A DNA stretch of 38,496 nucleotides from a bacterium (GTDB lineage: Bacteria; Campylobacterota; Campylobacteria; Campylobacterales; Sulfurovaceae), in assembly GCA_018822805.1 (NCBI GenBank), contig JAHJJU010000117.1, positions 1-38,496 on the forward strand. The letters are read 5' to 3'. Of this stretch, positions 10,762 to 21,290 are shown in pieces; within the stretch, counting starts at the first letter, position 1, and each line of letters starts with the position of its first letter. The notes beneath the pieces were generated by a model, which had not been told where the DNA came from, did no database searches, and saw only the letters and a list, made by a program, of their open reading frames with translations. Position numbers and translations under genes: made by a program.

Positions 10762-11982
10762 ATGAGTTTAGATATAAGCACTTTAGTCAAAAAGTATGAC
10801 ACCCCACTCTATGTGTATGATTTCAATAATATTACAAAACGATACGAAGAGCTTAAAGGTGCTTTTGATGGAAAAAAATCATTGGTAGCCTATGCTGTCA
10901 AATCGAACTCTAATTTGGCTGTTATTCGCCATCTAGCCAACCTTGGTGCCGGTGCTGATTGTGTGAGCATAGGGGAAGTGCAACGTGCCTTGAAAGCAGG
11001 GGTTAAGAAGTATCGTATTATTTTTTCAGGTGTGGGTAAAAAAGACTCTGAAATAAGAGCAGCCCTAGAAGCTGATATTTTATTGATTAATCTTGAGAGT
11101 GAAGCAGAGATGAAACGGGTTGAGATGATTGCTAAAGAGCTTGGTGTTGAAGCACGTATCTCTATTCGTGTTAATCCTAATGTTGATCCTAAAACCCATC
11201 CGTACATCTCTACCGGGTTACATGAGAATAAGTTTGGTGTAAGTCTGGATGCTGCAAAACGTATGTATATTTATGCCAAAAAATCTGAAAACTTAAATCC
11301 TGTGGGTATTCACTTTCATATTGGTTCTCAGTTAACCGAGTTGGCACCCATTAGTGAGGCTTGTGAGATTGTAGCTGATTTGGTACGCTCATTAAAGGCA
11401 ATTGATATTGACATTAAATTTTTTGATGTTGGTGGAGGGCTTGGTGTTGTTTACAATGATGAAACAACAATCAAACCAGAGGCTTATGCTCAAGCCATTG
11501 TTCAAAAATTAAAAGGCTTGGATTTAACCATTCTATCTGAGCCAGGTCGTTACATGATGGCAAATTCAGGTATTTTTTTAACCAAAGTTCTTTATGAAAA
11601 AGTCAATGGTGACAAACGTTTTGTTATAGTGGATGGAGCAATGAATGATCTTCTTAGACCAAGTCTTTATAATGCCTATCATAAAATAGAAGCCGTCAAA
11701 AAAGAGGGTGAATCAACAGCAGCAGATGTGGTAGGTCCAGTCTGTGAGAGTGGTGATTTTTTAGGAAAAGATGTGGCACTTCCCCCAATGAATCATAACG
11801 ATATCATCGTGGTTCATAGTGCCGGTGCTTATGGATTTACAATGTCCAGTAATTACAATACCAGAGGACGTGCAGCCGAAGTTGCTGTTCTTGATGGAAA
11901 AGATTATTTGATTCGTGAACGTGAGCGTTTTGAAGATCAAGTACGCCTTGAAGTGAGTTGTGACACAAGTTGGCAATCGTAG
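10762..11982 (+). CDS. lysA: Diaminopimelate decarboxylase
   Basis: This PLP enzyme (alanine-racemase fold) makes L-lysine from meso-diaminopimelate. The 406-residue product has YDTPLYVYDFNNI, the PLP lysine in LVAYAVKSNSNLAV, GIHFHIGSQL, FDVGGGLGV for phosphate binding, LSEPGRYMMANSG, and CESGDFLGKD with the partner-subunit Cys. After the canonical end (REREFEDQ-like) the protein carries a short unusual tail, LEVSCDTSWQS. The TAG stop is part of a REP-like palindrome (11979-12000), so the present C-terminus may have been set by insertion of that repeat. Confidence 0.95.
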   Translation: MSLDISTLVKKYDTPLYVYDFNNITKRYEELKGAFDGKKSLVAYAVKSNSNLAVIRHLANLGAGADCVSIGEVQRALKAGVKKYRIIFSGVGKKDSEIRAALEADILLINLESEAEMKRVEMIAKELGVEARISIRVNPNVDPKTHPYISTGLHENKFGVSLDAAKRMYIYAKKSENLNPVGIHFHIGSQLTELAPISEACEIVADLVRSLKAIDIDIKFFDVGGGLGVVYNDETTIKPEAYAQAIVQKLKGLDLTILSEPGRYMMANSGIFLTKVLYEKVNGDKRFVIVDGAMNDLLRPSLYNAYHKIEAVKKEGESTAADVVGPVCESGDFLGKDVALPPMNHNDIIVVHSAGAYGFTMSSNYNTRGRAAEVAVLDGKDYLIRERERFEDQVRLEVSCDTSWQS

Positions 11983-12000
11983 GGTGCAATTCATTGCACC
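11979..12000. repeat. REP-like hairpin with GTAG foot, supplies lysA stop
   Basis: GTAG (11979-11982) is followed by a perfect 8-bp hairpin, GGTGCAAT with ATTGCACC around a TC loop. A conserved GTAG foot plus palindrome is the hallmark of REP sequences recognised by RAYT (TnpA-REP) transposases. A near-identical unit occurs at 20890-20911. The TAG of the foot is the lysA stop codon. Confidence 0.75.
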
Positions 12001-12005
12001 ATAAT

Positions 12006-12032
12006 TCGTTCCCACGGAGACCGTGGGAACGA
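12006..12032. repeat. Perfect 12-bp inverted repeat (second palindrome type)
   Basis: TCGTTCCCACGG (12006-12017) and its exact complement (12021-12032) enclose the loop AGA. It lies 6 bases beyond the REP-like hairpin and 20 bases before pheA. It is GC-rich compared with its surroundings and has no T run downstream, so it looks like an interspersed repeat rather than a standard terminator, though it could stall transcription. Confidence 0.7.
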
Positions 12033-12052
12033 GAATAGGTAAAGGAAAAATA

Positions 12053-19894: not shown

Positions 19895-20893
19895 ATGTAC
19901 GCAAAATTTCATTCTATTGGAGCTTATGTTCCTTCTAAAATATTAAGTAATGCCGATCTTGAAAAGATGGTCGACACCAGTGATGAGTGGATTATAAAAC
20001 GTACAGGGATAAGTGAACGACGTATAGCAGCCAGTGATGAAGTAACCAGTGATATGGCTGCTAAAGCTTCTAAATTGGCCATAGAAAGAGCTGGGTTAGA
20101 GAGTTCTGATATTGATTTGGTTGTTTGTGCCACGGTGACTCCTGATTACTTTAATATGCCGGCTACAGCGTGTATTATTTCCGATAAACTTGGTATTAAA
20201 AATGTCCAAGCTTTCGATATTTCGGCAGCTTGTAGTGGCTTTGTTTATGCTTTGTCGGTGGCAAAAGCGTTTATCGAATCGGGTATGAAAAAACATGTGC
20301 TTATTATTGGTGCAGAAAAGTTTTCTTCAATAGTTGACTATACCGATCGAACGACCTGTATTTTGTTTGGTGATGGTGCCGGTGCTGCTGTAATTTCAGC
20401 AACTGAAGATAAATCTGAAGCAATGATTGATGTTCATGCTTCTGCTGATGGTTCTTATTCCGATTTTTTAGTAACACCTGCTCCAGGTGCGTTATATCCT
20501 GCCTCTCAACAAGTGATTGATCAAGGGCTTAATTTTGTTCAAATGAAAGGTAATGAAACCTTTAAATTGGCCGTTAAAACTTTGACCAAGGATGTTAAAG
20601 ATATCTTGGCAAAAAATGAGATAAAAGCAGAGGATATTCCACATTTTGTTCCTCATCAAGCCAATTATCGAATCATTAAAGCAGTGGGCGATGCATTAAA
20701 AATGAAAGAGGAACAAGTGGTTTTAACCGTTGGTAAGTATGGAAATACTTCAGCAGCTTCTATTCCAATGGCAATTAACGATATTTATGAGTCGGGACGT
20801 CTTAAAAAAGGTGAACTGATGTTGCTTGATACCTTTGGTGGTGGATTAACATGGGCAAGTGCTTTACTCCCTTTTGCAGGAGAGAGTAAGTAG
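19895..20893 (+). CDS. fabH: Beta-ketoacyl-ACP synthase III
   Basis: Starts type II fatty acid synthesis by condensing acetyl-CoA with malonyl-ACP. The 332-residue protein carries the Cys-His-Asn triad: Cys in [14 protein letters not shown], His in VPHQANYRI, Asn in [13 protein letters not shown]. The N-terminal part shows [16 protein letters not shown], which is characteristic. Its TAG stop lies in the GTAG foot of a BIME-like palindrome shared with the opposing gene. Confidence 0.96.
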
Positions 20894-20952
20894 GGTGCAA
20901 TTTATTGCACCATGATTTCTATATAAAATGGTGCATTAAAATGACACCCTAC
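20890..20952. repeat. BIME-like pair of inverted REP units between fabH and DUF309 gene
   Basis: The left unit is GTAG plus GGTGCAAT-TT-ATTGCACC (20890-20911). The right unit (20930-20952), read on the minus strand, is GTAG plus GGTGTCATT-TT-AATGCACC, a slightly decayed copy in opposite orientation. The 18-base spacer is A/T-rich. Two inverted REPs are a BIME. The left TAG is the fabH stop (20891-20893); the right TAG is the minus-strand stop of the DUF309 gene (20949-20951). The structure could also serve as a bidirectional terminator. Confidence 0.75.
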
Positions 20953-21290
20953 AGTTGATGTAATTTTTTTAATGCTTCAACTTTAAAACACGCCTCTTCA
21001 AACAGTTCAAAATGTTCAATCCCATTCACGCACAATCCTTTATGACGTTCAAATGAGTTAATGACTTTGGATGCTTTTTTATAAGAATTTTCTCTATCTC
21101 TTTTAAGATGTTCAAAACAGATAGCACCATTAATTAAGCCTTTGACGAGGTTTTTTAAGGGATGATTTTTTTTTCGTAGAGGATGCCATGCTTCTTCAAG
21201 TACTTCATGGGCATTAAAATATTCTTCTTGATGGAGTAGATTTATATAATTATGTAAGGCTTCTTTTAAATTAAGATTTTCTTTTAACAT
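20949..21290 (-). CDS. DUF309 family protein
   Basis: The 113-residue cytoplasmic helical protein shows the DUF309 signature: EEYFNAHEVLEEAWHPLRKK followed by LKNLVKGLINGAICFEHLKR, corresponding to the conserved FEAHEvLEeaW and KGliQ/A segments. Its molecular role is not established. It is convergent with fabH; its stop codon belongs to the shared BIME-like repeat. The ribosome-binding site upstream of the ATG is weak. Confidence 0.85.
   Translation of the reverse strand: MLKENLNLKEALHNYINLLHQEEYFNAHEVLEEAWHPLRKKNHPLKNLVKGLINGAICFEHLKRDRENSYKKASKVINSFERHKGLCVNGIEHFELFEEACFKVEALKKLHQL

Follow-up and report, generated by a model that had tools for sequence, protein, structure and literature searches.

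In a Sulfurovum-like genome of the Sulfurovaceae, the convergent genes for fabH and a DUF309 protein both end inside a single palindromic element, the stop codon of each forming part of a GTAG tetranucleotide at the element's outer edge. The locus lies in a window of 38,496 nucleotides (the whole stretch of DNA that was analysed) and raises the question of whether the element supplied the two stop codons or settled on stops that the genes already possessed. The 63-bp element (20890-20952) consists of a pair of REP units in inverted orientation, GTAGGGTGCAATTTATTGCACC on the left and GTAGGGTGTCATTTTAATGCACC, inverted, on the right, with an 18-nt spacer between them, and reads in full GTAGGGTGCAATTTATTGCACC - ATGATTTCTATATAAAAT - GGTGCATTAAAATGACACCCTAC. 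Its parts and the flanking genes are as follows.

19895-20893, plus strand: fabH (3-oxoacyl-ACP synthase III), 332 aa, an ORF ending in the left-foot TAG.
20890-20911, plus strand: REP unit 1, a GTAG foot and the palindrome GGTGCAATTTATTGCACC; its first 12 bases have 22 exact copies in the genome.
20891-20893, plus strand: TAG, the fabH stop, positions 2-4 of the left GTAG foot.
20912-20929, unstranded: spacer of the REP dimer, 18 nt, differing among congeners with the same dimer.
20930-20952, minus strand: REP unit 2, a GTAG foot and the palindrome GGTGTCATTTTAATGCACC.
20949-20951, minus strand (read 20951-20949): TAG, the stop of the DUF309 gene, positions 2-4 of the right GTAG foot.
20949-21290, minus strand: DUF309 protein gene, 113 aa (Pfam PF03745, E 9e-15).

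The initial annotation described two inverted REP-like units with GTAG at both outer ends, the left TAG stopping fabH and the right TAG, on the minus strand, stopping the DUF309 gene; the sequence and the ORFs confirm this description. Fifty-five bases separate the two stops, and the first G of each outer foot is the wobble base of the final sense codon (AAG TAG in fabH, CTG TAG in the DUF309 gene). In both arms the conserved GTAG stands 5' of a short palindrome, and the units are inverted with their feet pointing outward. The arms are related, non-identical sequences with the cores CAATTTATTG and TCATTTTAATG, and on either strand the element forms a single long hairpin (z about -7, RNA fold against shuffles). 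The element is a GTAG-family REP dimer of the BIME type. It has no match in an Rfam search, and the closest named relatives of its fabH are from Sulfurovum and Campylobacteraceae MAGs.

The focal genome (G000; 2.79 Mb in 121 contigs) contains many such units. GTAGGGTGCAAT occurs 22 times, against 0 for a reversed control, while the pattern GTAGGGTG-N5..20-GCACC has 80 matches against 1 in the control, and a somewhat broader pattern finds 100. The cores among the 80 units are CAATTTATTG, TCAATTTATTG, TCATTTTAATG, CGTTTCCCAACG, and CGATTGCCATCG. The units are mainly extragenic: 42 lie between co-directional genes, 12 between convergent and 2 between divergent genes, 8 at contig ends, and 16 touch an ORF, some of these being spurious ORFs or mere end overlaps. 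A GTAG foot is present on nearly all recognisable cores (about 5 exceptions), whether or not it serves as a stop, which argues that the tetranucleotide is intrinsic to the element or required for its mobility. Another hairpin repeat, GTTCCCACCG...CGGTGGGAAC, is also abundant; it has no relation to the GTAG REPs, often adjoins them, and is found at about 12010-12050 of the window and at many loci of two close species, G011 and G022.

The REP/BIME label given by the initial annotation, which had also suggested looking for a RAYT (REP-associated tyrosine transposase, a Y1 transposase) gene, is borne out by this repetition and by seven Y1-transposase/RAYT-like genes in the same genome, two of which (on contigs C86 and C25) score above the NCBIfam cut-off (NF047646). 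A RAYT-like ORF of 92 aa (L125, C88:134-361) falls just below the cut-off and is either a truncated gene or a contig-end artefact. Units of both focal types, CAATT and TCATTTTAATG, lie 90-105 nt upstream of it, and this fragment is a candidate mover of the CAATT-type REP. Across the genus the number of REPs ranges from 0 to 100 per genome, and they are commoner in genomes with a RAYT above the cut-off (Mann-Whitney P 0.0025, genus-wide and without phylogenetic correction). Another REP type, GTAGGTCGGGTTGCCCTCATCCCG, lies directly downstream of the C25 RAYT (L104), and a REP resembling it sits at a stop codon in the congener G010 (L147).

These properties agree with the GTAG-tagged REP superfamily, which Di Nocera et al. 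2013 (PMC3733652) report from all divisions of the Proteobacteria, with mention of GTAG repeats in Sulfurovum. Shared features are the GTAG foot, a 20-40 bp palindrome, high copy number, inverted dimers, a location mostly between convergent or co-directional genes, and a TAG foot serving as the stop of an ORF. The element also resembles the BIME/REPIN arrangement of Bertels and Rainey 2011 (PMC3116915) in having two inverted REPs that form one hairpin, and a RAYT in the genome. REPIN doublets are described as conserved units that replicate as such; the focal dimer has dissimilar arms and a spacer that varies between congeners.

The coincidence of foot and stop recurs throughout the genome. For each of the 80 units we measured how far the foot TAG lies from the closest stop of a same-strand ORF. 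A same-strand gene end lies within 30 nt in 32 units, and in 23 of these the in-frame stop and the foot TAG coincide exactly (P 2e-34 against a uniform null). The initial annotation's view of the foot as a stop codon therefore extends well beyond its own locus, and holds in a second species too, 16 of 27 feet within 30 nt being at distance zero in G011; a smaller mixed sample of G011/G022 loci gives a weaker spike. All gene ends are from simple ORF calls, and the genomes are mostly MAGs in many contigs. A stricter null takes GTAG sites as given: 25 of the 48 GTAGs in the zone comprising the stop and the next 30 nt are themselves stops, so that 52% would be expected at stops where 74% are seen (residual P 0.01). 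This null accounts for much of the spike.

The genes that end on a REP foot include ordinary conserved ones, namely fabH and galU-, polA-, valS-, and lysA-like genes, the last four names being our own assignments, read off the translations. Within the window, a second REP unit, GTAGGGTGCAATTCATTGCACC, lies at 11979-12000, its TAG foot being the in-frame stop of the 406-aa lysA-like gene. In three convergent pairs both feet are stops. Besides fabH/DUF309 these are the following two, at each of which one REP hairpin or dimer supplies both GTAG feet.

C35:2557-2582 (L105): convergent pair of a polA-like gene (896 aa) and a 143-aa gene, both stops being GTAG feet.
C39:26865-26917 (L106): convergent pair of a valS-like gene (877 aa) and a 780-aa gene, both stops being GTAG feet.

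One explanation, put forward by the initial annotation, is donation, in which a REP landed inside both genes close to their 3' ends and the TAG feet then served as new stops, truncating or replacing the original C-termini. In its favour, GTAG is intrinsic to the element. The nearest congeners available for comparison are about 80-82% identical in fabH DNA, a distance above strain level. In four that lack the REP (G010, G023, G009, and G019), FabH ends ...GESK at the same residue as in the carrier, with the stop TAA; the last residue of the DUF309 protein is likewise the same leucine, with the stops TAG, TAG, TGA, and TAG, respectively. Strong donation at fabH/DUF309 is rejected on these end residues, which indicate that the element sits on existing stops and did not create them. 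The initial annotation had named, as evidence against its own proposal, orthologues that lack the palindrome and end at the same residue and TAG: the residue is the same at both genes, whereas the TAG is not shared at fabH (TAA) and is found in most of these orthologues of the DUF309 gene (TAG or TGA).

Other carrier genes follow a similar pattern. For 21 of them, the 140 REP-free orthologues end at the identical residue in 89 cases and no more than two residues away in 132, counted without phylogenetic correction. The offset of zero in most genes speaks against donation, as does the fact that only 1 of the 80 units in the focal genome is read through, although two of the three frames would allow it. 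On the other side, about 5 of the 21 genes (galU, C23, C11_17534, C21_5651, and C39_26917) are consistently 1-5 codons shorter in the carrier than in REP-free relatives, so modest truncation with a REP-supplied stop does happen elsewhere, if not at fabH/DUF309. As an account of the focal locus, donation is thus improbable.

Among the congeners that do carry a REP here, the same dimer is present in G014 and G004, and the fabH stop of G021 bears a REP of another kind. The arms of G000 and G014 are identical (45/45) with differing spacers and 82% identity in fabH DNA, a pattern that conservation, homogenisation, or recent independent arrival could each explain. In G004 the dimer is decaying and its right foot reads ATAG, so in this one case the TAG stop outlives the REP motif.

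The close species G011 and G022 provide a presence/absence pair. The filled site (L414) reads ...GAG GTG TAG GGTGCGATTGCTATCGCACC ATATTAAATTGC and the empty one (L448) ...AGG GGT TAA TTATTAAATTGC. The two differ by a 20-nt palindrome directly after the stop, through insertion or loss; the stop is at the same codon, TAG when filled and TAA when empty, and the proteins are of equal length with near-identical flanks. Several other candidate empty sites in this pair of species were set aside, containing other repeats or unalignable spacers. At L406/L449, a native AAG TAG stop stands at the orthologous end without a REP.

If the stops are native, the exact register of foot and stop still calls for an explanation. 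One reading, akin to the alternative that the initial annotation had named (selection for a compact repeat that unites stop codon and terminator), is that insertion near gene 3' ends is unbiased and that deletion of neutral spacer, with selection for an unaltered protein and a 3' hairpin, brings the foot flush with the stop. In favour of this reading, the GTAG-site null covers much of the spike, and the fabH/DUF309 gap of relatives holds hairpins of unrelated sequence, which is expected if a hairpin is useful there. These hairpins belong to at least four types by sequence, and each folds better than its shuffles; among them are a TAGGTTCGATTTTATCGAACCTA type in G023, G019, and G009, a 47-nt palindrome in G022 and G011, and CCTATAGTCTCTATAGG in G010. 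A hairpin in this gap seems to be tolerated or useful whatever its sequence. Against compaction, a hairpin a few nucleotides downstream should be no less effective, but just 8 of 31 units are located 1-30 nt past the stop, and the G011/G022 pair retains nearly every post-stop base and merely adds 20 nt. Selection and compaction alone are a serious possibility to which we give somewhat less than even weight.

The other reading is that RAYT insertion prefers a TAG/TAA-like tetranucleotide and that, where the genome is compact, stops are the chief places at which a REP can land safely. Among orthologous stops free of a REP, 17% are GTAG against a background of 9% (P 0.003), an enrichment that is modest and without phylogenetic correction. 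Of 157 orthologous stops, 17 bear a REP foot, many more than the 0.4% predicted by a rough genome-wide estimate in which common ancestry is disregarded. At the galU stop, four congeners have four different REP cores, and the C25_8811 stop likewise has different cores in different species. Such recurrent occupancy may instead reflect shared ancestry and core replacement; between G011 (L374) and G022 (L342) the flanks of the galU site are near-identical and the cores different, through either core replacement or repeated insertion. In one RAYT system GTAG takes part in cleavage-site choice, but it is thought to act as a guide for cutting at CT or CA and not as the target (PMC8266576), and for this reason we offer stop targeting as a hypothesis. 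A strict need for a pre-existing GTAG is not supported, given the 17% at REP-free orthologous stops and the TAA of the clean empty allele, though stop turnover could mask a former GTAG at REP-free stops. We regard a RAYT preference as tentative, roughly a one-in-three prospect. The fuller version, in which RAYT-driven spread is directed to native stops by the machinery or by GTAG/N-TA(A/G) microhomology and the cores repeatedly swap, is a little more doubtful still. Selection and RAYT preference are sub-mechanisms of the explanation preferred below, and the weights given to them overlap with its own; the data are compatible both with insertion biased towards stop-like tetranucleotides and with selective survival and compaction.

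A stable hairpin in a convergent gap might also be no more than an intrinsic bidirectional terminator without mobile origin. One weak inner hairpin in the element is terminator-like, against 0.5 such hits expected, but no U-run directly follows the outer stem on either strand, so the element is not a classical intrinsic terminator. Because the genome has RAYT genes and no fewer than 80 close copies of the unit, this explanation is very unlikely, and a pure terminator is rejected on copy number and the missing U-run. The focal REP may nonetheless have a role in mRNA 3'-end protection or translation termination. In Escherichia coli, REPs within 15 nt of a stop stall ribosomes, according to the summary in PMC12306157. 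The focal element shares with the REPs described there a hairpin beside the stop codon; it differs in that its stop codon lies inside the stem base.

We therefore consider it probable that the element is a palindrome of RAYT type which came to lie on native stops and has been retained as a compact 3'-end hairpin. The REP dimer, one of at least 80 units, was presumably spread by a RAYT single-strand transposase and would have arrived through RAYT activity at or beside the stop triplets. Each GTAG foot overlaps a stop in the convergent gap that was probably there already, the protein ends predating the element; the fabH stop, mostly TAA elsewhere, is TAG where the REP is present, and the DUF309 stop is unchanged. 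Retention may have been favoured by leaving both proteins intact while giving each of the two mRNAs a compact hairpin at its 3' end.

That the termini of GTAG REPs often provide the TAG stop of a flanking ORF is already published (Di Nocera et al. 2013). Relative to the part of that paper drawn on here, the present analysis adds evidence that the stops are ancestral, a quantified spike at distance zero, and a convergent gene pair in which both stops are REP feet. The exact overlap of foot and native stop in two species, together with a presence/absence pair, makes the choice of landing site by REPs a testable matter, one possibility being that RAYTs favour sites resembling stops and the other that genomes retain mainly the copies flush with a stop. 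If targeting proves true, a selfish element would be rewriting host stop triplets across the genus while leaving the proteins unchanged. Whichever holds, the overlap cautions that mobile palindromes partly set TAG usage and the 3' ends of genes in REP-rich genomes.
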